Of a DNA stretch of 51,337 nt, positions 15,602-45,762 are shown piece by piece (the first letter of the stretch is position 1; each line of letters begins with the position of its first letter). The stretch covers positions 1 to 51,337 of the forward strand of contig JAMJVX010000035.1 in NCBI GenBank assembly GCA_023558315.1. Direction: 5' to 3'. A program made the translations under genes and the position numbers. The DNA is from Flavobacteriaceae bacterium. GTDB lineage: Bacteria > Bacteroidota > Bacteroidia > Flavobacteriales > Flavobacteriaceae. Below the pieces are notes generated by a model that was given only the letters and a program-made list of their open reading frames with translations, ran no database searches and was not told where the DNA came from.

Positions 15602-18600
15602 TTAATATTTAAATACCGCTAAAGAATCTTTATTACGAGAAACTATTACTCTATCTTCTAAGGTAATAATATCTCTAATTTCTCCTTTTACTTTAAACCC
15701 TTTTCCGCCTTGATGAAAAATAAATTTTTCATTGTTTTCATTCTCTAAAAATATGCCATAAGTACCATCATATCTTCCCATTTCTGGTTTTACACCATAT
15801 AGATTACCTCCCATAATAATATCTATATCACCATCTCTATCATAATCTCCTGAACTAAGGGCATAAATAGGAGAAAATTGTACTTCTGTTGGCAATTCCA
15901 TTTCCTCAAAATTCATCTCTCCTTTATTAATAAAAACAGCTGTTTTTAAATAATTAACTTGTTGAATCAGCGATTTGCTAAGTTTCTCTTTTGTGAATAT
16001 TTCAGAAATACTTGCATTTTTAAAAGATTCATAATTAGGAAATAGTTTTTTTAAACTCTTTATTTGATCTATTAAATTATGCCTTAAAGCATAGGGATAA
16101 TCTTTCCCGTCATCTCTACGAAAGGAAAGTATTGGGTCAAAAAAACCATTATTGTCATAATCATTTAAATACAAAGTAATCGGTTTTTCATCTGTTGCTT
16201 TAAATCTTGAATTTAACCCATGATTCCCTGCTATTATATCTACTTTTCCATCTCCATTTATATCCTCTAGGTAAAGTGTATTCCACCACCCTTTATATTT
16301 AGAAAGCGTAAATTCTTTTTGTCTAACAAATTGCTTATTTACAATTTTGAAAACTTCTATCCCCATAAATTCTCCAGTCAATATGAGCTCTTTATCACCG
16401 TCTCCATCTAAGTCATTAATTTTTATATCCGTAACCATTCCTATATTTTTTAATTCAGAGGCAACACTATTTGTGACATCTTTAAAAACTCCACTTCCGT
16501 TATTTTCTAATATAAATACATAACAAGGAATTCCATAATCATTTGGTTTGATTCGTTCCCCTATAATTAAATCTAAATCTCCATCCTTATCGTAATCAAA
16601 ACTTACAACACTACTAGTGCTTTTAGGGATAAACGGTAGTACATTATTTCCTTTTGCTGTAAAATTTCCTTTCCCATCATTAAAATAAAGAAAATCATTT
16701 AATTCGTTTGAATTATTTGAAAACTCTATACCTCCATTAGCTATATATAAGTCCATATCTCCATCATTGTCAGCATCAAAAAACATACTTTGCATCGACT
16801 CTCCCCATTTCTTATCATCAAAAACCTTTTTAATTTTAGTTTTAGTTTCATTTTCAATACTCTCAATTAATACAGAAGGATTGCCTTTAGAACCTCCTAT
16901 AAATAAAAGGGATTCTTCTCGTTCATCCTTTGTATTTATATACGACATTTTTGGACCTTGTGTACTATACATATGATATAGTAATCTATCTCTGTGAAAA
17001 TCTATATAATTATTTTCTTTGTGTTTATAGGGAATATTTAGTGATACCCTTTGGAAAATATTTTTCGATTTGTGAGTACTATCTTTTTCTTCTTTTAAAT
17101 CCGCATCTTTTTCATAATATGTATATATTTTATCTACTTCTATGGAGGTGAATTTAGAAATTTTTCCAGAGGGCCACACGATTTTTATATCTACATTTTT
17201 GTCAGAGGGCAACCCAATATTTGGACGAAAATCCATGCTAGATTGGAAACCACGAGTAGGTTGTTGTTCATAGTAATAGCTATTTTCTCCATCAGTTACT
17301 TCAATCTTTGCTCCAATTGCAAAATAATTTTCACTATCTCCAAATAAATTTAATTTAATAAAATGGTTATTTAGGGCTTCAGATGCCGTATTCTTATATA
17401 CAAATGCTTGCATATTTACATTATTAACTACCAAATCTAAGTCCCCATCATTATCTAAGTCTCCATACGCTGAGCCATTAGAAAAACTTGGAGTATTTAA
17501 TCCAGATGAATCAAATGTTTTGTAACTAATGCCTTTTAAATTTTTATGTGAAATATTTGGGACTTTATTAGAGGGAATTATATCTATTAATTTTTTATAA
17601 TTAATGCCTTCTTCAGTAATTATAGTACTCATTATATTTTCATTAGAAATATATTGTAAATAATCTTGATCTGTTAAGTCTCTATAAATTCCATTTGCAA
17701 TAAATAAATCTCTCCATCCATCATTATCCATATCAAAAAAGAGTGCTCCCCAACTCCAATCAGAAGATTCTACACTTGCTAATCTTCCTATTTCACTAAA
17801 TGTGTTGTTTGTATTGTTTAATTGAAAGGTATTCCTTGTAAATTGATGGTAATACCCATTTGAAACATTGTAATTATATTTATTCCAATCTTCAAAAGTT
17901 GTCACTGATTTAAGTCTTTGATAATCATTAGGCAACATTTCTGTAACGAATATATCATTATATCCATCATTATTTATATCTGCCATATCTGCCCCCATTG
18001 ATGCCGCACTAATAGATAAAAAATAAGATGTTAGTTGCTCCTTAAATGTGCCATCTTTTTGATTTATATATAAATAGTCTCTTTCAAAAAAATCATTTGA
18101 AATATACATGTCATCCCACCCATCTCTATTAACATCTCCTATTGTAACACCTAAACCAAATCCAATCACACTACCATAAATTCCAGCTTTTTCACTAACA
18201 TCATAAAACTTTCCATTTCTATTTTCTAATAATTTATCTCCTCCTAAAGTATCTCTTTTAGGGCGTTCATTTCTTCTTAAATCAAAACTTCCTATAGCTT
18301 GATATGAGTTGTTTAATATATATGCATCTAAATCGCCGTCTTTATCGTAATCAAAAAAACTTGTGTGCGTTGAGTATCCTGCATCTGCTAATTGATATTC
18401 GGATGCGGCTTCTCTAAAAGTTAAATCCCCATTATTTATAAACAACTCATTTTTTTTATTAATTCCTCCTAAATCTCCCGAGTTACAAACATATATATCC
18501 AAATATCCATCTGAATTAATATCTACCATGGTTACTCCTGTAGACCATGGTTTATTCCCTCCTACTTTTGCTTTTGCTGTTATATCTTCAAATTGAAAAT

Positions 18601-18874
18601 TGCCTTTATTTAAAAATAATTTATTTTCTTTTTGATTAGCCGACATATAAATATCCACTAATCCATCATTATTAATATCCCCAATAGCTACCCCGCCACC
18701 ATTGTAAAAATTACGATATTTGAATACGTTAAAGTTATTATCGTATGTTAAATCGTTAGAAAATTCTAATCCTATTGACTTATTATCTTGAAGTTGGAAA
18801 AGTTTTTTGTTTTCACGTATATTACTACAACTTATTAGAGTTATCAGTAATGAACAGCTTATTATTCGTTTCAT
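15602..18874 (-). CDS. CRTAC1-like VCBS/FG-GAP repeat lipoprotein with ASPIC/UnbV domain (copy 2)
   Basis: 1090 aa. The signal peptide ends LISCSN, so it is a lipoprotein. Many calcium-loop FG-GAP/VCBS repeats (DINNDGLVDIYMS, DYDKDGDLDAYI, DLDNDGDLDLVVNN) form beta-propellers on both sides of an ASPIC/UnbV domain (about 510-605: GAKIEV, RGFQSS, IVWPSGKISKF). It aligns along its length with the 1097-aa protein at 19459-22719 (shared RNF.NGGGVA.GDINNDGLVDIY and SFSNGSAY.DLDNDGDLDL), so the two are paralogues. Such proteins often lie beside susCD, and their role, probably binding substrate at the cell surface, is not established. It is last in a three-gene minus-strand unit. Confidence 0.88.
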   Translation of the reverse strand: MKRIISCSLLITLISCSNIRENKKLFQLQDNKSIGLEFSNDLTYDNNFNVFKYRNFYNGGGVAIGDINNDGLVDIYMSANQKENKLFLNKGNFQFEDITAKAKVGGNKPWSTGVTMVDINSDGYLDIYVCNSGDLGGINKKNELFINNGDLTFREAASEYQLADAGYSTHTSFFDYDKDGDLDAYILNNSYQAIGSFDLRRNERPKRDTLGGDKLLENRNGKFYDVSEKAGIYGSVIGFGLGVTIGDVNRDGWDDMYISNDFFERDYLYINQKDGTFKEQLTSYFLSISAASMGADMADINNDGYNDIFVTEMLPNDYQRLKSVTTFEDWNKYNYNVSNGYYHQFTRNTFQLNNTNNTFSEIGRLASVESSDWSWGALFFDMDNDGWRDLFIANGIYRDLTDQDYLQYISNENIMSTIITEEGINYKKLIDIIPSNKVPNISHKNLKGISYKTFDSSGLNTPSFSNGSAYGDLDNDGDLDLVVNNVNMQAFVYKNTASEALNNHFIKLNLFGDSENYFAIGAKIEVTDGENSYYYEQQPTRGFQSSMDFRPNIGLPSDKNVDIKIVWPSGKISKFTSIEVDKIYTYYEKDADLKEEKDSTHKSKNIFQRVSLNIPYKHKENNYIDFHRDRLLYHMYSTQGPKMSYINTKDEREESLLFIGGSKGNPSVLIESIENETKTKIKKVFDDKKWGESMQSMFFDADNDGDMDLYIANGGIEFSNNSNELNDFLYFNDGKGNFTAKGNNVLPFIPKSTSSVVSFDYDKDGDLDLIIGERIKPNDYGIPCYVFILENNGSGVFKDVTNSVASELKNIGMVTDIKINDLDGDGDKELILTGEFMGIEVFKIVNKQFVRQKEFTLSKYKGWWNTLYLEDINGDGKVDIIAGNHGLNSRFKATDEKPITLYLNDYDNNGFFDPILSFRRDDGKDYPYALRHNLIDQIKSLKKLFPNYESFKNASISEIFTKEKLSKSLIQQVNYLKTAVFINKGEMNFEEMELPTEVQFSPIYALSSGDYDRDGDIDIIMGGNLYGVKPEMGRYDGTYGIFLENENNEKFIFHQGGKGFKVKGEIRDIITLEDRVIVSRNKDSLAVFKY

Positions 18875-18884
18875 AATTTTTCGT

Positions 18885-19490
18885 TTACTTATATTTTTTA
18901 TACAAATGACCTATATCCTCTATTTTAACTATTACATCTTGTTTATCACTACTTTTTGTAGGATACATTTTTATTTGTCTATTTCCATCTACTTTAATAT
19001 AAAGGCTGGTACTATCAATATCAACTTTAAAAAAAGAGTTTCCAGGATACCACTTTTCTAATGTATCTTTTACAACTACTAATAAACTATCTGCTTGATA
19101 CTTTTTATCCCAAATTGACCAACCTCTATACCTAAACCGTATATCCATTCCTCTCATAATATTTTCTTCATCAAAAATACCATAAAAGAGCATTTCCATT
19201 TCTTCTAGGATATTCTCTTTATTTTTTGATGGCAATGCATATTTCACGAATTGATTATTTCCACCATGCGTGATAATTTTTTGCCTATTTAATTCCCAAC
19301 ACCTATCATAAAATTCTTGTCGAGTTTCTCCAAAATATAATCCAAAAAATATTGAGTCGTTTTTAATTTCTTTTTTTAGTTCACGCTTTACTACTTTGGA
19401 ATACTCAGATTCACAAGAAATTGAGCTAAAAACTATAAGTACTAAAAAGAATAAAATATTAATTGATTTCATAAAACTTTGCTTTTTCAT
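18885..19490 (-). CDS. Unrecognised lipoprotein between the two CRTAC1-like genes
   Basis: 201 aa; no family recognised. A lipobox (FSSISC) places it in the envelope. The mature part is mixed alpha/beta and rich in charged and aromatic residues (FGLYFGETRQEFYDRCWELNR, IRFRYRGWSIWDKK, WYPGNSFFKVDID). It starts inside the last codons of the upstream CRTAC1-like gene (32-base overlap, or 14 if the second Met at 19472 is used) and stops 10 bases before the next one, so it is translationally linked to both. That arrangement suggests a role with these proteins, but no motif gives the activity. Confidence 0.75.
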   Translation of the reverse strand: MKKQSFMKSINILFFLVLIVFSSISCESEYSKVVKRELKKEIKNDSIFFGLYFGETRQEFYDRCWELNRQKIITHGGNNQFVKYALPSKNKENILEEMEMLFYGIFDEENIMRGMDIRFRYRGWSIWDKKYQADSLLVVVKDTLEKWYPGNSFFKVDIDSTSLYIKVDGNRQIKMYPTKSSDKQDVIVKIEDIGHLYKKYK

Positions 19491-22400
19491 TATTAATAAT
19501 TGTAATAAGTGTTTTCCCCTCTTTTGTAATATGTAACTTTCTTATTTGACCTTCAATATTTAAACTCTTTGGAGTAGAAAAAATATATTTATTTCCCTCT
19601 ATTTTTCCCTCTATATACCATCCTTTAGATGCATCTTGACTTCCAAACTGAGGTTTTATTTTTCTTTGATTTCCGCCCGCAAAAATATCTAAAATTCCAT
19701 CATTATTGATATCTTTTGTCTCAATAGTATACACACTTGAATATTGAATTTCCTTCGGTAAAACATAAGGCGTAAATCCTTTTTCATTGTTATTAATAAA
19801 AAGGGTTGTTTCTGTAAAAATTGATTCTCCTATCAACGACCTATTTAAAACTTCAGGAGTAAATAAATCTTTCATAGACATAGATGCGTATTGTTTGTAA
19901 TAAAGTGCTTCTTTCTTTAAGTAAGGCATTTGACTTAATAATTCATCTCTATCTAAAATTGGATAATCTCCCCCTTCTCTTGAATAACAAAATATTTGTT
20001 CTACAGTCCCATTTTGATCGAAGTCGTTTACATACACCTTCATCTTATCTTTAAAGAAATTATTCTTCCCAAGATTTCCCGCTAAAATATCATTATCTCC
20101 ATCATTATCAATATCTATCACTTTTAGTACATTCCAAAATCCTGATGTTTTATCTAAGCCGTATTCTTCAGTAGAATCTTTTAATATTCCTTTATTATTA
20201 ATAAATATTTTTATGGGCATCCATTCTCCAGCAATTATTAAGTCTTCCCACCCATCATTATTAATATCACTCCAATTAGCATCTGTTATTAATCCTATCC
20301 TATTGAATATTTCTTCCTGTTCTAAACTATAATTTTCATTAGTATTATTTATTAGATAACCAGAACAAGGAAATCCGTATAAATCTGTTTTATATCTCTC
20401 CCCAATAAAAAAATCTATATCTCCGTCTTTGTCATAATCTGTTGGAGCGACAACCGAACTACTAAAATTTGTAAACGGGAAATTTAGTTCTTTTTTCTTA
20501 AAAACACCTTTGCCTTGATTTATGTATATTCTATCTTTTAAATGAGTAGAATTAACGGAAAATGCTTTTCCTCCACTCGCTACTACTAAATCACTATCCC
20601 CATCATTATCTACATCTATAAAACTTGCTTGTATATCTTCTGATTCTTTGTCTAATTCAAAAGGGGATTTGTATTCTTTGTATTTTACATTGTTTTGAGA
20701 AAGGTAAAGAGTCCCTGATTTTCCTTTTGCGCCTCCAATATAGTAGTCTTCTTTTCCATCATTATTTATATCTGAAAAAGCAAACGCGGGTCCTTCATTA
20801 CTAAACATCTGCGGCAGTAATGGCTCTAAATTAAAATCTATAAAATCATTTTCCTCGTGTTGATAATTGAATAAGGAGGTTTCTTTCCTTAAAATTTCAG
20901 TTGTTGCTTCTTTTAAAATACTTCTATTTACTTTGTTTTTATCTTTTGTAATCTCGTAATGTGTATTTACCTTTACGTTTACTTTTTCTGTAATACTACC
21001 ATCTGGCCATTTTACAATTAGGGTATCTATAAGATTAACTTCCCCTAAACCAAAATGTATTGGAGTATTTATAGAACTTTGAAACCCTTTTGAAGTACTT
21101 TTAAAAGCTATTAAATTTTTATTATCTTTTGTTTTCAAAATCACCTTTGAGCCAATTGCCGCTGTATTTTTATCGTCATTAACTAATGATATTGAAATAT
21201 ATTTTCTTTCTGTTGTTTTTGTAGTATTTTCATATACAAACGAAGGCATATTAACGTTATTCACTATTAAATCTAAATCCCCATCATTGTCTAAATCAGC
21301 GTATGCACTCCCATTACTAAAACTTGGGGTATCTAATCCCCATTCCTCAGATTTATTGTCCATTACAAAATTCCCTTCATTCTTATAAGCAAAGTTTGGC
21401 AATGCTTTTGAGGGCATAATATCTATCAATTTTTTAACTCCCTCTTTTTTATTTGCTTTTAAAGTATTTATTATCTGTTGTTCATTCGCACTAAACGTAA
21501 GGTAATCTCTATCCAATAAATCTTTATAAATACCATTACTAATAAATATATCTCTTAAGCCGTCATTGTCCATATCAAACATTAGCGCTGCCCAACTCCA
21601 TTCTGTAGCGGCTATATTTGACATTCTCCCAATTTCAAAAAAGCCAGCATGACCCATATTGCGTTGAAAAACGTTACGTGGATATTGATGTGAATATCCC
21701 TTTTTAAGTGCTAAAGAATATTTATCCCATGAATCATAAATAGCTTTAGTTTTTTTTCTTTCAAAAGTAGCTGGCAACATCTCAGTAACAAATAAATCAG
21801 GAAGCAAATCATTATCCATATCTGCGGCATCTGCTCCCATAGACCCTTTTGAAAAGGAACTAAAATAATTAGTAGCAACTTCATGAAATCCTCCATGTTG
21901 ATTATTTAAATAGAGATAATCGCGTTCAAAAAAATCATTAGAAACAAAAATATCTACCCACCCATCTTGATTAAAATCTTCTAAGGTAACTCCTAACCCA
22001 AATCCAATCTCACTTGTATAAATACCCGCTTCCTTAGAGAAATCTTTAAAATATCCCTTATCATTTATAAAAAATTTATTTCCTTCATTGCTAAATTCTT
22101 CCCTTTTATCTATTATTAAATCCATTCCTTGTCCAACGGGTCGTATAGAATTATTTAAAAGATACATATCTAAATCACCATCTTTATCAAAATCAAAAAA
22201 GGAGGCTTGTACTGATAAACCTACTATATCTAATCCATATTTTTTTGCTTGTTCTGTGAAAGTTCCATTTTTATTATTAATAAATAGTTCATTGTATCTC
22301 TTTTCACCATCTGGTTTCCCAGACTTACACACATATATATCTAACCATCCATCGCCATTTATATCAATCATAGATGCCCCAGATGACCAAACATTGGAAC

Positions 22401-22719
22401 AAGAAACGCCTGCTTTCTGTGTAATATCTTCAAATTTGAAATTCCCTTTGTTTAGGTATAACTTATTATCTACCATATTACCCGTAAAGTAGATATCTAC
22501 CAATCCGTCATTATTGATGTCTCCTAATGCTACGCCTCCTCCATTAAAAAAATTTCTATAGATATAAGGATTAAAATCTACAGTATACGTTAAATTATTA
22601 GCAAAATCAATTCCTGTTTCTTTGGCGGAAAGTAATTTAAAAAGTGTGTTATTATCTTCCGTTAAGGACTGACAAGAAAAGAGAAGTAGAAAACAAATAG
22701 AGAAACTTAGAATTCTCAT
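19459..22719 (-). CDS. CRTAC1-like VCBS/FG-GAP repeat lipoprotein with ASPIC/UnbV domain (copy 1)
   Basis: 1086 aa from the ATG at 22719. I reject the longer frame (22752): its start lies in the poly-A/T side of the susD terminator and upstream of the -7 box at 22734-22741. The chosen start also gives a clean lipoprotein signal (MRILSFSICFLLLFSC). FG-GAP/VCBS calcium loops recur throughout (DINNDGLVDIYF, DFDKDGDLDMYLL, DIDNDGDNDILAGN), with an ASPIC/UnbV domain near the middle (KGFQSSINTPIHFGLG, LIVKWPDGSI). It is paralogous to the downstream 1090-aa protein. Position after susCD suggests a surface-bound accessory binding protein; the substrate is unknown. Confidence 0.88.
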   Translation of the reverse strand: MRILSFSICFLLLFSCQSLTEDNNTLFKLLSAKETGIDFANNLTYTVDFNPYIYRNFFNGGGVALGDINNDGLVDIYFTGNMVDNKLYLNKGNFKFEDITQKAGVSCSNVWSSGASMIDINGDGWLDIYVCKSGKPDGEKRYNELFINNKNGTFTEQAKKYGLDIVGLSVQASFFDFDKDGDLDMYLLNNSIRPVGQGMDLIIDKREEFSNEGNKFFINDKGYFKDFSKEAGIYTSEIGFGLGVTLEDFNQDGWVDIFVSNDFFERDYLYLNNQHGGFHEVATNYFSSFSKGSMGADAADMDNDLLPDLFVTEMLPATFERKKTKAIYDSWDKYSLALKKGYSHQYPRNVFQRNMGHAGFFEIGRMSNIAATEWSWAALMFDMDNDGLRDIFISNGIYKDLLDRDYLTFSANEQQIINTLKANKKEGVKKLIDIMPSKALPNFAYKNEGNFVMDNKSEEWGLDTPSFSNGSAYADLDNDGDLDLIVNNVNMPSFVYENTTKTTERKYISISLVNDDKNTAAIGSKVILKTKDNKNLIAFKSTSKGFQSSINTPIHFGLGEVNLIDTLIVKWPDGSITEKVNVKVNTHYEITKDKNKVNRSILKEATTEILRKETSLFNYQHEENDFIDFNLEPLLPQMFSNEGPAFAFSDINNDGKEDYYIGGAKGKSGTLYLSQNNVKYKEYKSPFELDKESEDIQASFIDVDNDGDSDLVVASGGKAFSVNSTHLKDRIYINQGKGVFKKKELNFPFTNFSSSVVAPTDYDKDGDIDFFIGERYKTDLYGFPCSGYLINNTNENYSLEQEEIFNRIGLITDANWSDINNDGWEDLIIAGEWMPIKIFINNKGILKDSTEEYGLDKTSGFWNVLKVIDIDNDGDNDILAGNLGKNNFFKDKMKVYVNDFDQNGTVEQIFCYSREGGDYPILDRDELLSQMPYLKKEALYYKQYASMSMKDLFTPEVLNRSLIGESIFTETTLFINNNEKGFTPYVLPKEIQYSSVYTIETKDINNDGILDIFAGGNQRKIKPQFGSQDASKGWYIEGKIEGNKYIFSTPKSLNIEGQIRKLHITKEGKTLITIINNEKAKFYEIN

Positions 22720-22733
22720 AGAGATTTTTTTTG

Positions 22734-22741
22734 CAAATTTA
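22734..22741 (-). promoter_or_regulatory. Predicted -7 box (TAAATTTG) of the CRTAC1-like operon
   Basis: Minus-strand exact TAnnTTTG match, 14 bases before the ATG at 22719 and just after the susD terminator. It makes the CRTAC1-like unit independently transcribed and decides its start codon. Confidence 0.55.
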
Positions 22742-22750
22742 AATCTTTCC

Positions 22751-22780
22751 AAAAAAAAAACTGCCCAATAAATTGGGCAG
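22751..22780 (-). terminator. Rho-independent terminator of the susCD operon
   Basis: On the minus strand the stem CTGCCCAA/TTGGGCAG with a 4-base loop is followed by ten T. It lies 40 bases after the susD stop. The plus-strand side has only five T and no plus-strand gene to end. Confidence 0.9.
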
Positions 22781-22819
22781 TTTTTAAAAATTACAAAAAT
22801 AATTTATTACTAAATAGTC

Positions 22820-24445
22820 TTAGTAACCACTATTTTGTGTAAATCCTCCAGTTTGAATCGCTTCCATAGGAATAGGGAACATTCCAGTAGAATCCCCAGG
22901 CTGATTAGCCGCTTTTTCCCACCATGCATCATCCCATTTTCCAAAACGAATCATATCTTGACGACGTAAACTCTCCATAAAGAATTCTCTACCTCTTTCC
23001 TTATATAATTCATCTAAAGTTAATGTAGCAGTTGTAAATGAAGAACCACTAATCGCACGATTTCTAATGTTATTATTCAATAAAGAAATTGCTGTTGCAG
23101 AGCTTGTTGCTCCTCTTAATATAGCTTCCGCTTGAATAAAATACATTTCAGTGATACGAATTAATGTCATGTCATTATCCATATTTGGACGTTGGAACGC
23201 TTTAAAGCTAAATTTACCTAGACGAGTTCCACAATCACGACATCCATTAGGTGCTAATTCATTGATAGCTGGCTTATAATTTACTACAGGACCTTGATCT
23301 GCACCTGTACCTTTATCATCGTAAGCATAATCAATAATCGGTGCACCAGTACCAGGACCTCCATCACCAAATGATTTTTGTACTCCTGATAAGAAGTTAT
23401 TTGCTCTTCTTAAATCGTTAGCATCATAAGCATTATAGGCCTCTTCCAAAGCTACATACCCATTCCAAGGTTGATCTTGTAATTTCCATGTATCTTGACT
23501 TGAATACGTAAGAGTCATTTGCGCAAAGTTCATTCCTCCATTTGTTACCTCATCATAAGGAGTTGACCAAATTACTTCATTTGAAGAACCATTGCTTCCA
23601 TTATCAGGAGCAAATATCTCTGCATAATTGTTATGTAAACTATAACCCCCATTAGCAATTACATAAGCAGCAATATCATGTGCTTTTTGCCATTGAGCAG
23701 TACCTGTGTACACTTCTGCATTTAAGTATAATCTCGCTAATAAAGCTAAAGCTACATAACGATTTACTCTATAAGGATTTACTCTTGTAGTTACTAAATC
23801 TTCACCGAAAGTAGCTGCGCTTAAATCAGCTAAATTTGCTTCTGTAATACCTAAAGCGCCTAATAATTCGTCTCTTACTTTACCAAAAGCTGCTGCTCTT
23901 GTTAACTGAGGCAATGAAGATACACCGTCACCAGTTACATCTACATAACGAATTCTACCGAACATATCCATCAATTTAAAGTGATAGTATGCACGTAATA
24001 CTTTAAGTTCTGCGATAGCATTTGCTTTACCAGATGCATTTCCAATAGCTGAATTTACTTCAGAAATTGAACCATAAAACCCATTCCATGAATTTAAAAG
24101 TGGTCCATTTGCTGCTGAATACGTATGTTTATGCATATTTATCCAAATTCCACCATCATACCAGTCACCCCCTTTTTGTGTAATAGCTGCTTCGTCTGAA
24201 GAAACTATATTTACAGAAAAGTGATTTCCATGATTTGCTGTTCCTTCTCTTAATCTTGCATAAGCAGTATTAGTAACAGGATCAGAACCTATATTAGCAT
24301 CCGCTGCAATCACAGGAATTGTTTGTGCTGGCGAAGGCGTTATTTGTGATGTTGTAGTATTTCTCAGTTCTTCTGTTAAATCTGTACAAGACAACACACA
24401 TAAAACACTTAAAAATGTTATTAATATTAAATTTAATTTTTTCAT
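22820..24445 (-). CDS. SusD/RagB-family nutrient-binding outer-membrane lipoprotein
   Basis: 541 aa. Lipobox LCVLSCTD (Cys20). The TPR-like helical core of the family is visible (NSWNGFYGSISEVNSAIG, AIAELKVLRAYYHFKLMDMFG, NRYVALALLARLYLNAEVY), as is the C-terminal SusD block (ITEMYFIQAEAILRG, LDELYKERGREFFMESLRRQDMIRFGKW). SusD proteins act as a lid over the partner SusC channel and capture glycans or peptides. It lies 25 bases after susC and is closed by the terminator at 22751-22780. No substrate can be assigned. Confidence 0.95.
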   Translation of the reverse strand: MKKLNLILITFLSVLCVLSCTDLTEELRNTTTSQITPSPAQTIPVIAADANIGSDPVTNTAYARLREGTANHGNHFSVNIVSSDEAAITQKGGDWYDGGIWINMHKHTYSAANGPLLNSWNGFYGSISEVNSAIGNASGKANAIAELKVLRAYYHFKLMDMFGRIRYVDVTGDGVSSLPQLTRAAAFGKVRDELLGALGITEANLADLSAATFGEDLVTTRVNPYRVNRYVALALLARLYLNAEVYTGTAQWQKAHDIAAYVIANGGYSLHNNYAEIFAPDNGSNGSSNEVIWSTPYDEVTNGGMNFAQMTLTYSSQDTWKLQDQPWNGYVALEEAYNAYDANDLRRANNFLSGVQKSFGDGGPGTGAPIIDYAYDDKGTGADQGPVVNYKPAINELAPNGCRDCGTRLGKFSFKAFQRPNMDNDMTLIRITEMYFIQAEAILRGATSSATAISLLNNNIRNRAISGSSFTTATLTLDELYKERGREFFMESLRRQDMIRFGKWDDAWWEKAANQPGDSTGMFPIPMEAIQTGGFTQNSGY

Positions 24446-24470: not shown

Positions 24471-27464
24471 TTAAAATTTTATATTTAATCCTGCGGTAAT
24501 CGTTCTAAAAGCGAAATATGTTCCTCTTCTATCTATACCCGGAGCTAACACATTGTCTCCATCTTGTAATGCAGGGTCTGGGTTTACACCTGTATATCCT
24601 GTAATGGTTAATGGATTTTGTGCGTTTAATGATACTGATAAAGCTTCTATTCCTAATGTTTCAGGAAGATCAAAACTATATTCAACGTTGATATTATCAA
24701 TACGTACAAAATCAGCATTTTCAACATAGTAATCACTAAACTGTGCAGTTTTAATTTTATCATCTGCATATTTAGTATTCACTAAATTATAAGACGTTTG
24801 TGAAGCTACACGTGGCTCATAAAAAGCTCTATACGTATTTACTAGACTGTGTCCAAAAGCACCTCTAAAGAAAGCACTGATGCTCAAGTTTCCTAAATCA
24901 ACTCTATTTGACCATCCCAAAGAAAAGGCTGGATAAGCTTGACCTACAACTTTAAAATCTGCATCTTCATTTAATGCTTCTCCATTTGAAGCTTTTACTG
25001 TTCCATCGCCGTTAAGATCTTCTAATATTGGAGAACCATTCTCATCTACATTTCCAGTATATACTGGAGCATAAATTTGACCAATCGTTCCACCTTCTTC
25101 AACTAATATCATGTTAGTTTCATTTTGTCCAGGAGCACCTAAGTTTCCATCTAAAAATCTATTAGTACCTTCTACAGTCCATTTAACAAGCTCATTACGA
25201 TATGAATCAAATACAATACCCGTATTCCAAGTTAAATCATCGCTAGCAATTACATCGTAATTAGCGGCTAATTCAATCCCTTGAGTTTGTAATTCTCCAG
25301 CATTTTGCCATTGAGTACTTGCTCCTAAGAAATCAGGATTTGATGCATCTACTTTAGCTAAAAATAAGAAATCTTTACTATTTCTTTGGTAAACGTCTAA
25401 AGTTGCATTTAATCTATCTGTTTGGAATTCAAAACCTAAATTCATCTCTGCTTTCTCTTCCCATTTCAAGTTTTTATTTGGTGCAAAATTTGGATTATTA
25501 GCTGCTGCAAATCCTCCTGCAGCCGTTGAACCAACAGGGTTAACACCAAATTGTGTTTGAGATAATCCTGTTTGACCAGGTAAAGCCCCAGTTACTCCGT
25601 ATCCAAAACGTACTTTTAAAAGCTCAACACCTTCTAAGTCTAAAAATTTGTTTATGTCTGCTCCAACTCCAACAGATGGGAATAATCCCCATTGGTTGTT
25701 CTCTCCAAATCTTGAAGAACCTTCTCTACGAATAGAAGCATTAAAGAAATAAGTATCGTCATATGTTAAGTTAATTCTACCAAACATTGCGATAATTTTA
25801 TCTTCTGGAGTTAAGTAACTACTTGCACCAATACGCCCTGTATCTCTTAAATCCTGTGCTACACCTACGTTATATACCCATTGTATTTGACTATCATCTG
25901 GGAAACCTCCTAAATTAAAGTTAAATCCGAAGTTATCTTGAACTAAGTTGTAAGAATAACCTGCTGTTACTGATAAATCTAACGCATCAATTTCTTTGTT
26001 GTAATTTAAATATGATTCAAACAATTGTGATTTAGCAGTATGTGCGCTAAATAAAGCTTGTCCTTTTCTTAAAGGATTAGTTGCAAATCCTCCAATATTA
26101 TTTGCAACCCAGTGAGATTTTGTACTTCTGTAACCATGGAATATACCTTTAAAGTTTGTTTCAGCATAATTTAAATTAACGTTTAATCCCTCTATGATTT
26201 CATAATTCAAATTAGCACCATAATTAAATCTAGTAGTTTCCCCTAAATTTGTGTTTTGGTCTAATATTGCACGAGGATTAAAACTGTCAAATACACCAAA
26301 GTTTTCAAAATATCCTCCATAAATGTTTTCATCTACTGGGAATAATGTTCTGTTAGTGTCTTTTGCGTAAACTGGCGCTAAAGGATTAAATAATACTGCA
26401 TAACGAAGCGCTTCTCTAAACGCGTAATTTGCATCTTCTTGAGTGTAAGAAGAGTTGAAATCTACTTTCAACTTATCATTTAATAATTTAGTAGAGAAGT
26501 TTACACGTGAGTTAAATCTTTGGAATTCTTGAGTATCTAAGATACCTTGAACATTTCTAAGGTTTGTAGAAACTCTATAACGTGTTTTTTCAGTAGCACC
26601 TGCTAAAGAAATATTGTGAATATTAGTAAAGGCATCTCTTGTAACTTCATCTAACCAATCAGTAGAACCTCCAACATCTGTTCCTCCAGCTGTTCTAAAT
26701 TCATCAGCTGTCATTACTTTCACTCTATTATTAATTTGAGCGATAGATGCTTGTCCGTTATATTCAACTTTTGTTCCTTGAGTGGTTCCAGACTTAGTAG
26801 TTACTAAGATAACCCCACTACTACCTCGCGTACCATATATAGCTGCTGCAGAACCGTCTTTTAATACAGTAATATCAGCGATATCATTAGGGTCAACGTT
26901 GTCTAAAGAACCGCCAATAATACCATCAATAACTATCAAAGGCTGAGTGTTTCCTCCAAAAGTAGATAAACCTCTCAATCTTATTGTAGGTGTACCTGTA
27001 GGATCATCTCCTCTATTATAGATAGTTAATCCAGCAACCTTACCTTGTAATAATTGCGTTGGATTATTAACAACCCCTTTATTGAAAGATTCTTCATCTA
27101 TTACAGCAACAGCTGAAGTGATTTCTTTCTTTTCTTGAGAACCGTATCCTACTACTACTACTTCTTCTAAAGAACTATCTGACTCTAAAGTCACATTAAT
27201 AGTAGTTTGTGATCCAACGGTTATTTCTTGTGCTGCATAACCTACATAAGAGATTACTAACACATCGTCTGCACCTGCATCAATGGTAAAATTACCATCA
27301 AAATCAGTAGAGGCTCCATTACTAGTTCCTTTTACAGTAACAGTAGCTCCAGGTAATGGACCTTCTGCACTAGAAACTGTACCTGAAACTTGCTGCGCAT
27401 ATGCGACTATTCCCATCAAAAACATTGACAGGAAACAAAAATGTTTCAAATAAATTTTTTTCAT
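24471..27464 (-). CDS. SusC/RagA-family TonB-linked outer-membrane transporter
   Basis: 997 aa. A signal peptide (ends AYAQ) is followed by a carboxypeptidase-regulatory-like domain (about 25-100, VSGTVSSAEGPLPGATVTVKG to SYVGYAAQEITVG). Next come the SusC linker EEVVVVGYGSQEKKEITSAV, a plug domain (about 115-220, LQGKVAGLTI...RLRGLSTFGGNTQPLIVIDGI), and a 22-strand-type barrel ending in Phe (TAGLNIKF). It imports oligomers into the periplasm using TonB energy with the adjacent SusD lid. The upstream region has no perfect -7 box; TTAGTTTG at 27519-27526 (minus strand) is the best near match. Regulation is probably by the divergent LacI-type protein. Confidence 0.95.
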   Translation of the reverse strand: MKKIYLKHFCFLSMFLMGIVAYAQQVSGTVSSAEGPLPGATVTVKGTSNGASTDFDGNFTIDAGADDVLVISYVGYAAQEITVGSQTTINVTLESDSSLEEVVVVGYGSQEKKEITSAVAVIDEESFNKGVVNNPTQLLQGKVAGLTIYNRGDDPTGTPTIRLRGLSTFGGNTQPLIVIDGIIGGSLDNVDPNDIADITVLKDGSAAAIYGTRGSSGVILVTTKSGTTQGTKVEYNGQASIAQINNRVKVMTADEFRTAGGTDVGGSTDWLDEVTRDAFTNIHNISLAGATEKTRYRVSTNLRNVQGILDTQEFQRFNSRVNFSTKLLNDKLKVDFNSSYTQEDANYAFREALRYAVLFNPLAPVYAKDTNRTLFPVDENIYGGYFENFGVFDSFNPRAILDQNTNLGETTRFNYGANLNYEIIEGLNVNLNYAETNFKGIFHGYRSTKSHWVANNIGGFATNPLRKGQALFSAHTAKSQLFESYLNYNKEIDALDLSVTAGYSYNLVQDNFGFNFNLGGFPDDSQIQWVYNVGVAQDLRDTGRIGASSYLTPEDKIIAMFGRINLTYDDTYFFNASIRREGSSRFGENNQWGLFPSVGVGADINKFLDLEGVELLKVRFGYGVTGALPGQTGLSQTQFGVNPVGSTAAGGFAAANNPNFAPNKNLKWEEKAEMNLGFEFQTDRLNATLDVYQRNSKDFLFLAKVDASNPDFLGASTQWQNAGELQTQGIELAANYDVIASDDLTWNTGIVFDSYRNELVKWTVEGTNRFLDGNLGAPGQNETNMILVEEGGTIGQIYAPVYTGNVDENGSPILEDLNGDGTVKASNGEALNEDADFKVVGQAYPAFSLGWSNRVDLGNLSISAFFRGAFGHSLVNTYRAFYEPRVASQTSYNLVNTKYADDKIKTAQFSDYYVENADFVRIDNINVEYSFDLPETLGIEALSVSLNAQNPLTITGYTGVNPDPALQDGDNVLAPGIDRRGTYFAFRTITAGLNIKF

Positions 27465-27623
27465 ACAATTTTAAATTTAAATTTTTTTTTAATTAAACAA
27501 TATTTAATGCTCAAGTCTCAAACTAATTTTAACAAAAAGCTAGTTATAAAACTTTTGCGGTGCAATTATAGATAAAAACAAGTTAAAAACAACTAGGTCA
27601 CTTGCTATTTTTTTAAAAAAACT

Positions 27624-27643
27624 AAACGAAAACGTTTTCGTTT
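27624..27643. promoter_or_regulatory. Perfect 20-bp palindromic LacI-family operator
   Basis: AAACGAAAACGTTTTCGTTT is a perfect inverted repeat with a central CG, the hallmark of LacI/GalR-family operators, where CG step intercalation is used. It lies in the divergent gap between susC and the LacI-type gene, 13 bases before the regulator's -7 box and so over its -33 region, and 160 bases from the susC start. I infer autoregulation and control of susCD. Confidence 0.8.
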
Positions 27644-27656
27644 TTAATATTATTTA

Positions 27657-27664
27657 TATTTTTG
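27657..27664 (+). promoter_or_regulatory. Predicted -7 box (TATTTTTG) of the LacI-type gene
   Basis: Exact TAnnTTTG match 18 bases before the ATG at 27683. It includes the TTG at 27662-27664 that would otherwise look like an alternative start codon, so that start is excluded. Confidence 0.65.
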
Positions 27665-27682
27665 ATTAAATATTTTTCATTT

Positions 27683-28699
27683 ATGCAAAAAACAAAGCTT
27701 CTAGATATTGCAAAAGAGTTGGGCATATCTGTTGGAACCGTTTCCAAAGCATTACGAGGGTATGATGAAATTAGTGATAGCACTATCGCAAAAGTAAAAG
27801 CCGCTGCTGATAAATACAATTTTATTCCAAATAGTATCGCTGTTAAATTAAGATCGCAAGAATCCAAAAATATTGGGGTGATTATCCCTGATTTGAAAAA
27901 CTCTTTTTTTATAGATGTTTTAAAAGGTATGATATTAGAAGCTGGAAAGCAGCATTATTCCATTATAATAAAAGAATCTAAAGATTCACATAAATTAGAG
28001 AATCGGTGTGTAGAAGAACTATTAGTGCAAAATGTAGATGGTATTTTTATTTCATTGTCTAATAATACTAAAGTAAATACACATTTGCAGAAAATAAAAG
28101 AGTCTGGAGTAATATTAATTCAATTTGATAAGATTTCTAAAACGCTACAAACAACAAAAATAATTAATGATAATTACAAAGCTAGTTTTGAAGTTACTGA
28201 AAAGCTAATTCTTAAGGGACGAAAAAAAATTGCTTTAATTAGGAGTAGTCATAATTCTGAAAATACTTTTAAAAGATTTATTGGATATAGAGACGCGCTA
28301 TTAAAACATAATATTACTGTTGATAATGAATTAGTAATTAATATTCAAAATTTGAATTATATAGAAGGATATAACAACCTACATTCTTTATTCAAAAAAA
28401 ATAAAAAAATTGATGCTGTTTTTGCATTAAATGATAATGCAGCGATTGGCTGTTTAAATTGTATCAAGGATCTTGGATTTTCTGTGCCTAAAGATATTGC
28501 GGTAGTAGGTTTCAGTAATTCAGAAATAACTTCTTTAGTGTCTCCAAAGCTCAGCACTATAAATCAACATGGTGAATTAATGGGAAAAAAGATTATGAAT
28601 CGATTTTATGAGGAAAAACAAATGCTAAAAGAAAAAAAGGAGGTCGTCTTTGAAAATATTACTTTAGAAACTACTTTTATTAAAAGAGAATCCTCTTAA
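27683..28699 (+). CDS. LacI/GalR-family transcriptional regulator
   Basis: 338 aa from the ATG at 27683. The in-frame TTG at 27662 belongs to the promoter and is rejected. The N-terminal helix-turn-helix is classical (KLLDIAKELGISVGTVSKALRG), followed by the hinge helix (NSIAVKLRS). A periplasmic-binding-protein-like effector domain completes it (NIGVIIPDLKNSFFIDVLKGM, ALNDNAAIGCLNCIKDLGFSVPKDIAVVGFSNSE, LSTINQHGELMGKKIM). Such regulators release DNA, or bind it, on sensing a sugar or nucleoside. The perfect palindrome at 27624-27643 is its likely site, controlling itself and susCD. Its stop abuts the ruvB stop on the other strand. Confidence 0.94.
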   Translation: MQKTKLLDIAKELGISVGTVSKALRGYDEISDSTIAKVKAAADKYNFIPNSIAVKLRSQESKNIGVIIPDLKNSFFIDVLKGMILEAGKQHYSIIIKESKDSHKLENRCVEELLVQNVDGIFISLSNNTKVNTHLQKIKESGVILIQFDKISKTLQTTKIINDNYKASFEVTEKLILKGRKKIALIRSSHNSENTFKRFIGYRDALLKHNITVDNELVINIQNLNYIEGYNNLHSLFKKNKKIDAVFALNDNAAIGCLNCIKDLGFSVPKDIAVVGFSNSEITSLVSPKLSTINQHGELMGKKIMNRFYEEKQMLKEKKEVVFENITLETTFIKRESS

Positions 28700-30879: not shown

Positions 30880-32634
30880 CTAATGTTCCTCTTCTCCTTT
30901 CTTTAAGGGTACATCTTGTGGAACAAAATCTTCTTTATGTCCAGGTTTAGAATAGTCGTATGCCCATCTATGTACACTAGGAATTTCTCCTTCCCAGTTT
31001 CCATGAATATGTTTTACAGGGGCAGTCCATTCCAACGTATTAGATTTCCATGGGTTTTGTTCTGTTTTCTTTCCATAGAATATACTATGAATGAAATTAT
31101 ATAAAAATACAAGTTGTGCAGCTCCTGCGATAAAAGCAAATACAGAGATAAGTACATTTATATCTGCCAAGTCATCAAAATAAGGGAATGCCGTATTTGT
31201 GTAATATCTCCTTGGAAGTCCTGCCATTCCTATGAAGTGCATAGGAAAAAATATTCCATAGGACGCAATTGCTGTTATCCAAAAGTGTACATACCCTAAT
31301 TTTTTATTCATCATTCTACCAAACATTTTCGGAAACCAATGATATACCCCAGCAAATAAACCATATAGAGCGGATATACCCATCACTAAGTGGAAATGCG
31401 CCACCACAAAATAGGTGTCATGTACATTGATATCTAACGCACTATTTCCTAAAATAAGTCCTGTCAATCCTCCAGATATAAAGGTAGAAACCAGCCCTAT
31501 AGAAAATAGCATTGCTGGATTGAGTTGTAGATTTCCTTTCCAGAGCGTAGTAATATAATTAAATGCTTTTACAGCTGAGGGAATGGCAATTAGCAAGGTC
31601 GTAAATGTAAATACAGAACCTAAGAATGGGTTCATTCCTGTAATAAACATATGGTGTCCCCATACAATTGTAGATAAAAATGCAATAGCAATAATAGACA
31701 TAATCATTGCTCTATATCCAAAAATAGGTTTTCGCGCATGAGTAGCTACTATTTCAGAGGTTATACCCAGTGCTGGTAGCAATACAATATATACTTCAGG
31801 GTGTCCTAAGAACCAAAATAAATGTTCAAATAAAACTGGCGACCCCCCTTGATAATGTAATACTTCTCCTTGTATAAATATATCTGACAAATAAAACGAG
31901 GTGCCAAAACTTCTGTCCATAATGAGCAACAAAGCTGCTGAAAGTAATACAGGGAAAGAAAGAATTCCAATTATTGCAGTAACGAAAAATGCCCAAATAG
32001 TAAGTGGAAGTTTGGTCATACTCATTCCTTTTGTTCTTAAATTAAGTACAGTAACAACATAATTTAAAGAGCCTAATAAAGAAGACGCTATAAATATTGC
32101 CATAGATACTAACCATAAAGTCATCCCTAATCCCGAGCCAGGCTGGGCTTGTGGCAGTGCACTTAATGGAGGATAAATCGTCCATCCTGCGGCTGCTGGA
32201 CCTGCTGTAACGAATAGTGATATCAGCATTATAACACATGAAAGAAAGAACAACCAATAAGAAATCATATTTAAAAATCCAGAGGCCATGTCTCTTGCAC
32301 CAATTTGTAATGGGATTAATAAGTTACTAAATGTTCCACTTAATCCAGCTGTTAATACAAAAAACACCATTATAGTTCCATGTATTGTAACCAGTGCCAA
32401 ATAAATATTAGGATCCATTACGCCGTCTTCTGCCCATTTACCAAGAAATAATTCAAGGAAAATATTTGGGTCTTCTGGCCAAGCCAATTGAATTCTAAAC
32501 AGCATTGACATTCCTATTCCTATAATTCCCATCAATAATCCTGTTATTAGGTATTGCTTAGAAATCATCTTATGATCTTGTGAAAAGATATATTTTGTTA
32601 TGAATGTTTCTTTATGATGATGATTATCTCCCAT
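30880..32634 (-). CDS. coxA: Cytochrome c oxidase subunit I
   Basis: 584 aa with twelve or more membrane helices. It holds heme a and the heme a3/CuB site where oxygen is reduced and protons are pumped. Ligand motifs are complete: VTIHGTIMVFF (heme a His), FLGHPEVYIVLLPALG (CuB His and the cross-linked Tyr, with the A-type Glu of HPEVY), WGHHMFITGMNP (CuB His pair) and HDTYFVVAHFHLVMG (heme a3 and heme a His). The HPEVY Glu and GARDMA Asp indicate an A1-type enzyme with a D channel. It is the last gene of the act-cox operon; subunit III and heme A synthesis genes are not in this window. Confidence 0.96.
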   Translation of the reverse strand: MGDNHHHKETFITKYIFSQDHKMISKQYLITGLLMGIIGIGMSMLFRIQLAWPEDPNIFLELFLGKWAEDGVMDPNIYLALVTIHGTIMVFFVLTAGLSGTFSNLLIPLQIGARDMASGFLNMISYWLFFLSCVIMLISLFVTAGPAAAGWTIYPPLSALPQAQPGSGLGMTLWLVSMAIFIASSLLGSLNYVVTVLNLRTKGMSMTKLPLTIWAFFVTAIIGILSFPVLLSAALLLIMDRSFGTSFYLSDIFIQGEVLHYQGGSPVLFEHLFWFLGHPEVYIVLLPALGITSEIVATHARKPIFGYRAMIMSIIAIAFLSTIVWGHHMFITGMNPFLGSVFTFTTLLIAIPSAVKAFNYITTLWKGNLQLNPAMLFSIGLVSTFISGGLTGLILGNSALDINVHDTYFVVAHFHLVMGISALYGLFAGVYHWFPKMFGRMMNKKLGYVHFWITAIASYGIFFPMHFIGMAGLPRRYYTNTAFPYFDDLADINVLISVFAFIAGAAQLVFLYNFIHSIFYGKKTEQNPWKSNTLEWTAPVKHIHGNWEGEIPSVHRWAYDYSKPGHKEDFVPQDVPLKKGEEEH

Positions 32635-32667
32635 TTTATATCAATTTATATTTTTTATTAATTTCTA

Positions 32668-33735
32668 TTATTGTATTACCTCCGCAAAAGTTTTTTGTTC
32701 TGCTAACCATTTTTGAAACTCTTCTTCAGATTCTACAATTATTTTCATCTGCATATTATAATGAGAAGCCCCACAGATTTTATTACATAATAATATATAA
32801 TCAAATTCATAAGGTTCTAAAGTTTCCTCGCCCTTAGCAATTAACTCTTTATTATTCTCAGTACGAATAGCATTTATTTTGTTTACTTTTTTTACAATAT
32901 CTTCATTTTTCCTCATTTGAGCTGTAGTTATTGTAGGTGTAAAAGCAAATTGAGTTATCATTCCAGGCACACAATTCATTTGTACTCTAAAATGGGGAAT
33001 ATAAGCAGAATGTATTACATCTTGAGAACGCATTTTTAAAATAACTTCTCTTCCAACAGGTAGATGTATCTCTTGTGTAACAACTACATCATCCTTTCCA
33101 TAAGGGTCATCGGGATCAATTCCAACTATATTTTTTCCATCAAACTCTTGGAGATACCTCACGTGGGCTTCGCCTAAAACATTATCTACTCCAGCATATC
33201 GAGCTTTCCAATTAAATTGTTGCGCATATAATCCTAATACTAACGCTTTTTCATTTTCTTTAGGATACATAATTTTAGACCAAGTTCTTAATCCATAGGT
33301 AATTAGTACAGCTAATGCAATAATTGGAATAACTGTCCATATTAGCTCTAATTTGTGATTTTCATGATAAAAAAATGCTTTGCCCTCTTTTTTACCTCTG
33401 TACTTATATGCAAAATAATGTAAAACTGCTTGTGTTACGAATTGCACAAAGAAGATTAAAATAAAGGATATATTCATTAAAAAATCATACTCTTTACCAT
33501 GCGCTGATGCTGCTTTTGGAAGTAATAAGTCTCCCCATTTCCAGAAGGAAAATAGCATTAATATATAGAGGAACCCTAAAAATGCAAACATTAATTTACC
33601 ATTAAGACGGTTGTCTTTATCGCTAGCTATTTGCGAGTTATCCATTGAAACTTGAGCAATTTCAAATATTTTCTTTAATTGCCATAATGCAATTCCTATA
33701 ATTATAACAATAATAAAAATTAATAAAATATTCAT
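32668..33735 (-). CDS. coxB: Cytochrome c oxidase subunit II
   Basis: 355 aa. It carries the CuA centre that accepts electrons from cytochrome c. After an extra N-terminal helix (about 2-20) come helices near 48-70, 86-110 and 130-152, then the cupredoxin domain. CuA ligands: His in HSAYIPHFRVQMNC, and the loop LLCNKICGASHYNMQM (two Cys, His, Met). The usual Glu between the Cys is Lys here; that residue ligates through its backbone, so function should be retained. A charged insert of about 40 residues precedes the Cys loop. No C-terminal cytochrome c domain is present, so the oxidase is aa3 rather than caa3. It lies 12 bases after actF and 33 before coxA. Confidence 0.94.
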   Translation of the reverse strand: MNILLIFIIVIIIGIALWQLKKIFEIAQVSMDNSQIASDKDNRLNGKLMFAFLGFLYILMLFSFWKWGDLLLPKAASAHGKEYDFLMNISFILIFFVQFVTQAVLHYFAYKYRGKKEGKAFFYHENHKLELIWTVIPIIALAVLITYGLRTWSKIMYPKENEKALVLGLYAQQFNWKARYAGVDNVLGEAHVRYLQEFDGKNIVGIDPDDPYGKDDVVVTQEIHLPVGREVILKMRSQDVIHSAYIPHFRVQMNCVPGMITQFAFTPTITTAQMRKNEDIVKKVNKINAIRTENNKELIAKGEETLEPYEFDYILLCNKICGASHYNMQMKIIVESEEEFQKWLAEQKTFAEVIQ

Positions 33736-33747
33736 TTGATTTTTTCT

Positions 33748-35133
33748 TTAATAATGAAACTGTTTACTTTCCTCAATAAATGGGTCTTTTTCTACCACAA
33801 GAGGGCTTTTAGTTAAAGCGTTAAATACTATGTAAATAAATAACCCTAAGAATAATAAAAATGCACTTACTTCCGATAATCCAATAGTCCATTGATCGCC
33901 CACAGTAGAAGGCATAATCAACACAAAAACATCTATATAGTGACCTATAATTAGGATTATACCTACAATTACAACTAGGTAATTTACTCTTTTAAAATGA
34001 CCACTCATTAATATTAAAATTGGCATTGCTAAATTCAGCACAAGCATTCCAAAAAACAGCAATGTATAATCTTCCATTCTTGTAATAAAGTAGGTAACTT
34101 CTTCAGGAATATTAGAATACCATATCAGCATAAATTGGGAAAACCATAAATACGTCCAAAAAATACTAAATGCAAACATGAATTTTGCTAAATCGTGAAG
34201 GTGATTTTCGTTTACAACTTCCAAATACCCTTTAGATTTAAGATATATAACTATTAATGTAAGCGCAGTAATTCCAGAAACAAACATCCCTGCGAAAATA
34301 TACCATCCAAACAAAGTACTAAACCAGTGTGGGTCAATTGACATAATCCAGTCCCAAGACATTAATGATTCTGTAACAATATAAAATACTAAAAATGCAG
34401 CGGATAAACGAAAGTTCTTTTTATAATTACTAATCCCTCCTTCTTTATCTTGAGCCAAAGAGAATTTTCTTGAAAAATGTCTATACAACACCCATCCTGT
34501 AATAAAAAATACCGCTCTTAGTAAGAAAAATGAGGTATTTAAATACGAAGTTTTTCCTTTGATTATCTCATCGTGGGCTACTACCTCTGGATCCATCCAT
34601 ATAAATAAATGATTAAAATGTAGCGCGGATAAACATAAAATCACAAAAACTATGACTAATCCTGGAAAAAGATAGGCTGTCATTGCTTCCATTACTCTAA
34701 ATAAAATAATTGACCAACCTGCTTGTGACGCTCTTTGTATTGCGTAAAATACTAAAATACCTAAAGAAAGAAATACAAAAAACAATGCTGCCACATATAA
34801 AGCTGCCCATGGCTTATTTTGCAATTGATGTAATAAATGCTCACCGTGATGATCCTCATGATGTGCGTCTGACTCTGTGCTTTCATGATGCGTATTATCT
34901 TTCTCACCATGATGTGTTTCTTCACCATGATGTGCCTCCTCTTTCTCATGATGCATGGCTTCTTTCTTAATATAAGAATGTGCTTCATCGTGATGATTCG
35001 CTTTTGCTACAATTGCATTTGCTTCCTCTACAGTACTAGGAGCACTTAAAAAACCGATTATTAACCCTATAGCCCCAATTACTATTAGTACTAAAGATGT
35101 TATTTTTAACTTATTAGGAAAAATATATTTCAT
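33748..35133 (-). CDS. actF: Alternative complex III membrane subunit ActF
   Basis: 461 aa, about ten membrane helices, the second polytopic subunit of the quinol:cytochrome c oxidoreductase (ACIII). It follows the heme subunit ActE and precedes coxB, the standard Bacteroidetes order. Helix 1 is about residues 10-30. Between helices 1 and 2 (residues 47-102) lies a loop with 17 His and many Glu/Asp. The rest contains typical segments (ESLMSWDWIMSIDPHWFSTLFGWY, FSIFWTYLWFSQFMLIWYSNIPEE). The Trp/His-rich SWDWIMSIDPHW motif is a family hallmark. ActF is thought to form part of the proton path in the complex. Confidence 0.9.
   Translation of the reverse strand: MKYIFPNKLKITSLVLIVIGAIGLIIGFLSAPSTVEEANAIVAKANHHDEAHSYIKKEAMHHEKEEAHHGEETHHGEKDNTHHESTESDAHHEDHHGEHLLHQLQNKPWAALYVAALFFVFLSLGILVFYAIQRASQAGWSIILFRVMEAMTAYLFPGLVIVFVILCLSALHFNHLFIWMDPEVVAHDEIIKGKTSYLNTSFFLLRAVFFITGWVLYRHFSRKFSLAQDKEGGISNYKKNFRLSAAFLVFYIVTESLMSWDWIMSIDPHWFSTLFGWYIFAGMFVSGITALTLIVIYLKSKGYLEVVNENHLHDLAKFMFAFSIFWTYLWFSQFMLIWYSNIPEEVTYFITRMEDYTLLFFGMLVLNLAMPILILMSGHFKRVNYLVVIVGIILIIGHYIDVFVLIMPSTVGDQWTIGLSEVSAFLLFLGLFIYIVFNALTKSPLVVEKDPFIEESKQFHY
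34828..34995 (-). other. Histidine-rich low-complexity segment within ActF
   Basis: Residues 47-102 of ActF contain 17 His in 56 positions, mostly as HH pairs separated by acidic residues (HHEKEEAHHGEETHHGEK). On DNA this appears as repeated atgatg-type triplets. It should face outside the membrane, and it could bind divalent metal. Confidence 0.9.
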
Positions 35134-35143
35134 TTTGCTTTTT

Positions 35144-35692
35144 TTATTTTTCTAAATTTTTTCTTAATTCCATAACATATTGAACAACTTGCCATCTTTC
35201 TTTTGCATTAATTTGTCCTGCATGTGAACCCATAGCATTTCTACCATACATAATTACGTGATATACGCTACCTTCTGTAATTTCTCTATCTATATAACTA
35301 GGGATACCTAAAAACTTTTCTCTCTTTGCTAAAATCCCTTGCCCATCTCCTTTATTCCCATGACATACGGCACAATATATAGCATACAACTCTTTTCCTT
35401 TAGTTGCATTTTCTTCGTTACTTACTAAAGGTGATTGTAATTCTTTCTTTGCTTGTTGATACCCATTCTCAGAATTTTCAAACGTATAAGGAGTCCAACC
35501 TCTATGTATTGTTCCTTCTACTGGCAATTGTGCCTCTATTCCATTGGCAAATGCATCTGATTCTGCATACGCTTCATACCCTACAGATTCATACATATTA
35601 GGAAAATATTGATAATTTGGTTTTTTTTTGTTAAAACACGATGTTAAAGCAAAAAAGCTAACAACTAAAAATAATTTGATGGCTATTTTCAT
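35144..35692 (-). CDS. actE: Alternative complex III monoheme cytochrome c subunit ActE
   Basis: 182 aa. A lipoprotein signal (FALTSCFNKK) anchors it outside the inner membrane. One c-type heme site is present, CAVCHGNKGDGQG, with the distal Met probably in NAMGSHAGQI. ActE takes electrons from ActA/ActB and hands them to the CuA site of the oxidase. Its start codon overlaps the ActD stop by one base (35692), indicating translational coupling; actF follows by 10 bases. Confidence 0.93.
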   Translation of the reverse strand: MKIAIKLFLVVSFFALTSCFNKKKPNYQYFPNMYESVGYEAYAESDAFANGIEAQLPVEGTIHRGWTPYTFENSENGYQQAKKELQSPLVSNEENATKGKELYAIYCAVCHGNKGDGQGILAKREKFLGIPSYIDREITEGSVYHVIMYGRNAMGSHAGQINAKERWQVVQYVMELRKNLEK

Positions 35693-37606: not shown

Positions 37607-37646
37607 TTATATTCTTTTTAATTTTTAACTCGCTTTTTTAATACTT

Positions 37647-38615: not shown

Positions 38616-38639
38616 ACCTATATTCCATTTATACCTCTC

Positions 38640-41702: not shown

Positions 41703-41773
41703 AATTTTAAATTTACTTTTTACTTTTACTTACTAAAAAATTAAAGGTGTTTTATTCTAATGAATTTAATCTG

Positions 41774-43057: not shown

Positions 43058-43077
43058 TCTGAATACTAAAAAGTATG

Positions 43078-43085
43078 CAAATATA
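43078..43085 (-). promoter_or_regulatory. Predicted -7 box (TATATTTG) of the act-cox operon
   Basis: Minus-strand exact TAnnTTTG match 20 bases before the ActA start, in the gap after the propeller lipoprotein stop. It would drive nine genes down to the terminator at 30834-30863. Confidence 0.6.
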
Positions 43086-43135
43086 AATAATATGTAATAA
43101 ATTCCTTTTTTTTAATAAAAAAATCTACATTTATT

Positions 43136-44497: not shown

Positions 44498-44508
44498 AAT
44501 TTTTAATT

Positions 44509-45759: not shown

Positions 45760-45762
45760 TGA

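Follow-up and report, generated by a model that had tools for sequence, protein, structure and literature searches.

What does a perfect palindrome control when it lies between a LacI-family regulator and a divergently transcribed susC gene? We considered this question for a stretch of 51,337 nucleotides from a Flavobacteriaceae bacterium ("the window"), which is contig 35 of a draft assembly (1.56 Mb in 83 contigs, 92% complete). An earlier note on this DNA described a perfect palindrome, a 20-bp inverted repeat whose center and arms contain CG. It ends 13 bases before an exact -7 box, and susC starts 160 bases away on the other strand. The sequence agrees on each point: both arms of the repeat are exact, there is a CG step at the center and one more in each arm, and the 13 bases past its end are followed by an exact match to TAnnTTTG. 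The palindrome is 42 bp from lacI and about 160 bp from the ATG of susC. The coordinates of these features are given in Table 1.

Table 1. Features near the predicted operator, in positions of the window.
Feature	Position	Strand	Basis or remark
Predicted operator AAACGAAAACGTTTTCGTTT	27624..27643	.	Sequence and conservation in relatives
Predicted lacI -7 box TATTTTTG	27657..27664	+	Match and position kept in the clade; predicted transcription start near 27669
LacI-family regulator, 338 aa: HTH, hinge, sugar-binding domain	27683..28699	+	
Predicted susC -7 box TATAATTG, with TTG 19 nt upstream	27563..27570	-	Inferred; predicted start near 27558
SusC/RagA-type TonB-dependent transporter; the presumed target operon begins with this gene	24471..27464	-	
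SusD-like lipoprotein, presumed co-regulated	22820..24445	-	
FG-GAP/ASPIC-UnbV repeat protein, presumed co-regulated	19459..22752	-	Gene order conserved
201-aa protein, cassette marker	18885..19490	-	No Pfam or NCBIfam match
Second FG-GAP/ASPIC-UnbV repeat protein, presumed co-regulated	15602..18874	-	

The palindrome is the only perfect one of at least 20 bp in the window. Its length alone is only mildly unusual, because 0.33 perfect 20-bp palindromes of any kind are expected per window in first-order Markov sequence (0.05 if they must be CG-centered). Similarly, the window contains 87 matches to TAnnTTTG, as compared to 86 expected, so a lone -7 match has no statistical weight. Both features gain significance only via their conservation in relatives.

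We compared 94 LacI loci, including the window's own; nearly all are from the same family, and most genera are represented once. The conserved 14-bp core of the palindrome, CGAAAACGTTTTCG (27627-27640), is found upstream of lacI in 74 of the 94 loci with at most two mismatches, and it is exact in 48 of them. Among the loci outside the window that have a divergent susC, 64/69 have the core (two mismatches or fewer), versus 7/3450 (0.2%) of shuffled upstream regions, with the caveat that the relatives' loci are not mutually independent. We also examined a further sample of 30 loci that were picked by the exact 14-mer alone. Half of these (15/30) lie between divergent lacI and susC genes; several of the others fall within long reading frames and probably arose by chance. 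The exact 14-mer is present in 65 of 119 genomes, at 0-5 copies per genome, and given this low copy number, an intergenic copy is a useful indication that a locus is regulated. The correlation between the presence of the operator and the residues of the recognition helix is only suggestive because most of the loci without the operator are not divergent to susC.

Could the palindrome have arisen by chance, or be a terminator or an RNA hairpin, with no involvement of the LacI protein? AT-rich DNA does yield perfect palindromes of this length at the rate given above. However, both the sequence and its position are kept in dozens of genera, and the palindrome is upstream of both predicted start sites. 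The hairpin itself is just 0.9-1.6 standard deviations better than shuffles and we saw no terminator-like site, so we rejected the hairpin and terminator readings. Also, an even palindrome with a central CG is the usual form of LacI-family sites: in a survey of LacI regulators, the operators are CG-centered even palindromes of 16-22 nt, and over three quarters of the local regulators are predicted to be autoregulated (PMC4052901). The palindrome has this form (20 bp, CG center, near the regulator's gene). We consider a chance or hairpin origin to be very improbable. The earlier note's proposal of a LacI-family operator is borne out, as a predicted site, by conservation across the family, and the palindrome is almost certainly the operator of the adjacent regulator.

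The regulator itself scores above the Pfam cutoffs for PF00356 (40.3 bits; the cutoff is 27), PF00532, PF13377, and PF13407. It has an N-terminal LacI-type helix-turn-helix and a sensor domain that resembles periplasmic binding proteins, so it belongs to the LacI family. It is only about 40% identical to its relatives, which is a limit of the comparison with them. Its closest relatives with solved structures include CcpA (the best), RbsR, and PurR. It is not PurR proper (135 bits, versus an NCBIfam equivalog cutoff of 501) or CcpA proper (170 versus 442 bits); being under both cutoffs, it is neither, although it resembles both in its mode of action. By an alignment by eye with the PurR hinge, which is not a structural comparison, AVKLRSQESKNIG of the regulator contains the hinge leucine and, after it, the basic residue that go with a CG step at the center of the operator.

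The earlier note also proposed that the palindrome could be used to probe the whole genome for the regulon, and the idea of a wider regulon did not hold up. Just one protein in this genome has a LacI-type helix-turn-helix above the Pfam cutoff. Scanning the assembly (92% complete) with the 20-mer, allowing up to three mismatches, gave no second site. Scanning with the 14-mer and up to two mismatches gave one other match, which is inside a reading frame that, by eye, looks like a malate/lactate-type dehydrogenase. Neither scan found a second intergenic operator in this assembly, so a multi-site regulon is not supported.

On the lacI side, the -7 box was used to predict a promoter. In Flavobacterium psychrophilum, TAnnTTTG spans -12 to -5 (PMC9723704). 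By this convention, lacI would be transcribed from the start given in Table 1 and the operator would be centered at about -35. In a quick protein tree with long branches, the regulator groups with those of L003, L068, L145, L008, and L140 (97% SH-aLRT). Throughout this clade, 40-57 bp separate the operator and lacI. An exact TAnnTTTG follows the operator on the lacI strand, at offsets of 11-18, in five of the six members (16 in the window and 18, 14, 11, and 11 in the others), and the sixth has a box with one mismatch at offset 14. It is this recurrence in the clade, and not the box itself, that supports the lacI promoter. A scan for E. coli-type sigma-70 promoters gave no match. The mechanically called start of lacI, a TTG at 27662, overlaps the -7 box and is probably not the true start; we used the ATG at 27683. 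The operator falls on the promoter that is predicted for the regulator's own gene. The earlier note argued that a bound repressor would cover the -33 region and block its own synthesis, and the boxes in the clade and the geometry relative to the predicted start support this: the operator probably mediates autorepression of lacI.

Is the operator there for lacI only, with susC controlled by something else? The window's site is near lacI (42 bp) and far from susC (162 bp), over the -35 region of the predicted lacI promoter. But in the relatives, the site tracks susC instead of lacI. Among loci with twin operators, the spacing from the operator to susC has a standard deviation of 9 bp, versus 29 bp for the spacing to lacI; among the 27 loci whose transporter cassette is of the window's type, these values are 26 bp and 105 bp. 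Furthermore, the operator stays before susC in three loci without an adjacent lacI (L131, L133, and L147), where it is presumably acted on by a regulator that is encoded elsewhere in the genome. These comparisons suggest that susC, more than lacI, sets where the operator lies, and we consider pure autoregulation to be quite unlikely.

The promoter-like matches before susC point the same way, with the proviso that the offsets are taken from matches in AT-rich DNA and that the promoters are predicted. In the window, by the same convention as above, the operator would be centered at about -75 relative to the start of susC. Two features of the window speak against this reading: its susC -7 box has one mismatch to TAnnTTTG, and the distance from its operator to the ATG of susC (162 bp) exceeds that in nearly all of the relatives (93-148 bp, with one at 209 bp). 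L106, L145, and L147 have susC boxes of the form TAnnATTG at nearly the same offset (54-55). Of 26 loci with twin operators, 22 have a susC-strand -7 box at an offset of 33-36, where shuffles predict 1.5, and 17 have a lacI-strand box at an offset of 14-18, where 3.4 would be expected. In a sister clade with the operator variant CGAAAACGGTTTCG, the susC -7 box is at an offset of 45-47. Overall, the relatives' susC offsets fall into classes of 34-35, 45-47, and 53-56, which correspond to operator centers near -53 (with a second operator at -74), -64, and -74. These classes seem to be about one helical turn apart; this phasing is read from three classes, with no formal test. The earlier note had suggested that the control of susC might differ from that of lacI. 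This is supported, and it was understated: the operator tracks susC at activator-like positions upstream of the predicted promoter. What the note missed is that the site appears to be positioned for susC.

Twin operators between lacI and susC, 21 bp (sometimes 20 bp) apart, are found in L007, L016, L029, L031, L044, L045, and about 24 further loci. In L104, lacI adjoins queG and ruvB, and the genes on the SusC side encode, among others, an MFS transporter and a PfkB-type kinase. By its offset, the window's operator corresponds to the twin-clade site that is nearer to lacI (56 = 35 + 21). We therefore considered whether the window alone had lost one of two ancestral operators; this is not supported, as all members of its clade (in the quick tree with long branches) have one site each. 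The variant CGAAAACGGTTTCG is found in L092, L095, L099, L100, L102, and L122-L138. In those loci, the operator is at a nearly fixed distance from susC (about 92-113 bp), and lacI is 160-510 bp away.

The known rule for CcpA is that sites upstream of the -35 region activate while sites that overlap the promoter repress, depending on the helix face; an exception is lev, where CcpA bound upstream blocks an activator and so represses (PMC3463425). If this rule is applied here, then the operator represses lacI and activates susC. We therefore favor, with some reservation, a dual switch at one predicted operator, with lacI repressed and susC, susD, and the FG-GAP genes activated. Specifically, the palindrome would be the single operator of a local LacI-family regulator and would serve two divergent promoters. 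Toward lacI, the bound dimer would cover the -33 region and repress the regulator's own gene. Toward susC, the operator would lie upstream of the core promoter, and the regulator, bound on one helix face, would activate susC-susD together with the FG-GAP genes, in the way that CcpA acts at upstream cre sites. DNA binding is presumably switched by a sugar or a breakdown product of a glycan. We infer all of these components: binding, the start sites, autorepression, the sign of susC control, and the ligand. The activation of susC seems somewhat better than an even bet.

The main competing reading is that the regulator represses both promoters: it would cover the -33 region of lacI and silence susC from upstream, and an inducer would free both. 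Silencing could mean that the alpha subunit of RNA polymerase is kept from its contact region, that a loop forms, or that an activator is blocked. LacI-family proteins are mostly repressors, lev is an example of repression from an upstream CcpA site, and competition with the upstream contacts of the polymerase is conceivable for a site at -53. Sites near -64 and -74, however, are far from the core promoter, and yet their spacing from the susC -7 box is nearly constant. As for looping, we did not see a second operator downstream of the start of susC. We regard repression of both promoters as possible and as clearly the less probable of the two. If susC is instead activated, then deleting such regulators should turn uptake off, not on.

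The presumed target operon is a cassette that is kept throughout the family. After susC and susD on the minus strand come the two FG-GAP/ASPIC-UnbV proteins, which are very large, and the 201-aa orphan protein (15602-24445, not counting SusC). L103, L106, L107, and L119 have the same order of regulator, SusC, SusD, two FG-GAP proteins, and 201-aa protein, and the ruvB-COX1-COX2 neighborhood is also the same in L103 and L106. Of 397 genomes from the family, 47 encode the 201-aa protein, the window's among them. None of the five genes in the cassette matched a glycoside hydrolase. Adjoining the window's locus is a respiratory cluster (30880-47712, minus strand) with COX1, COX2, an NrfD-like protein, an iron-sulfur protein, and a multihaem cytochrome. 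By gene content, this looks like alternative complex III and an oxidase.

More broadly, it is roughly an even question whether a Flavobacteriaceae-wide class of LacI proteins directly activates SusCD operons. Such proteins would act on one helix face, at operators centered near -53, -64, and/or -74 that often come as a tandem pair with a 21-bp spacing, and would use this same DNA to repress their own genes. CGAAAACGTTTTCG provides a transferable and testable operator code for LacI-controlled uptake operons across the Flavobacteriaceae.

Among the papers that we searched, none dealt with this operator in Flavobacteria. The text of the LacI survey had no match to "Flavobacter," and the Bacteroides examples named in its text control the catabolism of sugar acids (PMC4052901). 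In Bacteroides, the regulators that are usually named for uptake operons of this kind are of three Bacteroidetes-specific types, none of which is LacI (PMC3878776). Two other leads that mention LacI were set aside: the TamL paper concerns a laboratory construct and the xylan paper concerns an AraC-type hybrid.

The only exact match to the core in the literature text was the PurR operator. The operator listed for the co-crystal of PurR from E. coli (1PNR) is acGaAAACGTTTtCgt (PMC4655474), which is identical to the 16-bp core here, and the proteins belong to the same family. PurR, however, is the repressor of the purine regulon, whereas the regulator in the window adjoins a SusC/SusD operon and scores far under the PurR cutoff. 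The site also resembles those of the local LacI regulons (PMC4052901) in being an even, CG-centered palindrome with a local regulon. CcpA from Bacillus subtilis is similar in that it is a LacI-family protein, is a dual regulator (this being CcpA's own activity), and is the best relative with a solved structure. But CcpA is a global regulator that works with HPr-Ser-P as its partner, whereas the regulator here is local, with one site, and is under the CcpA cutoff.
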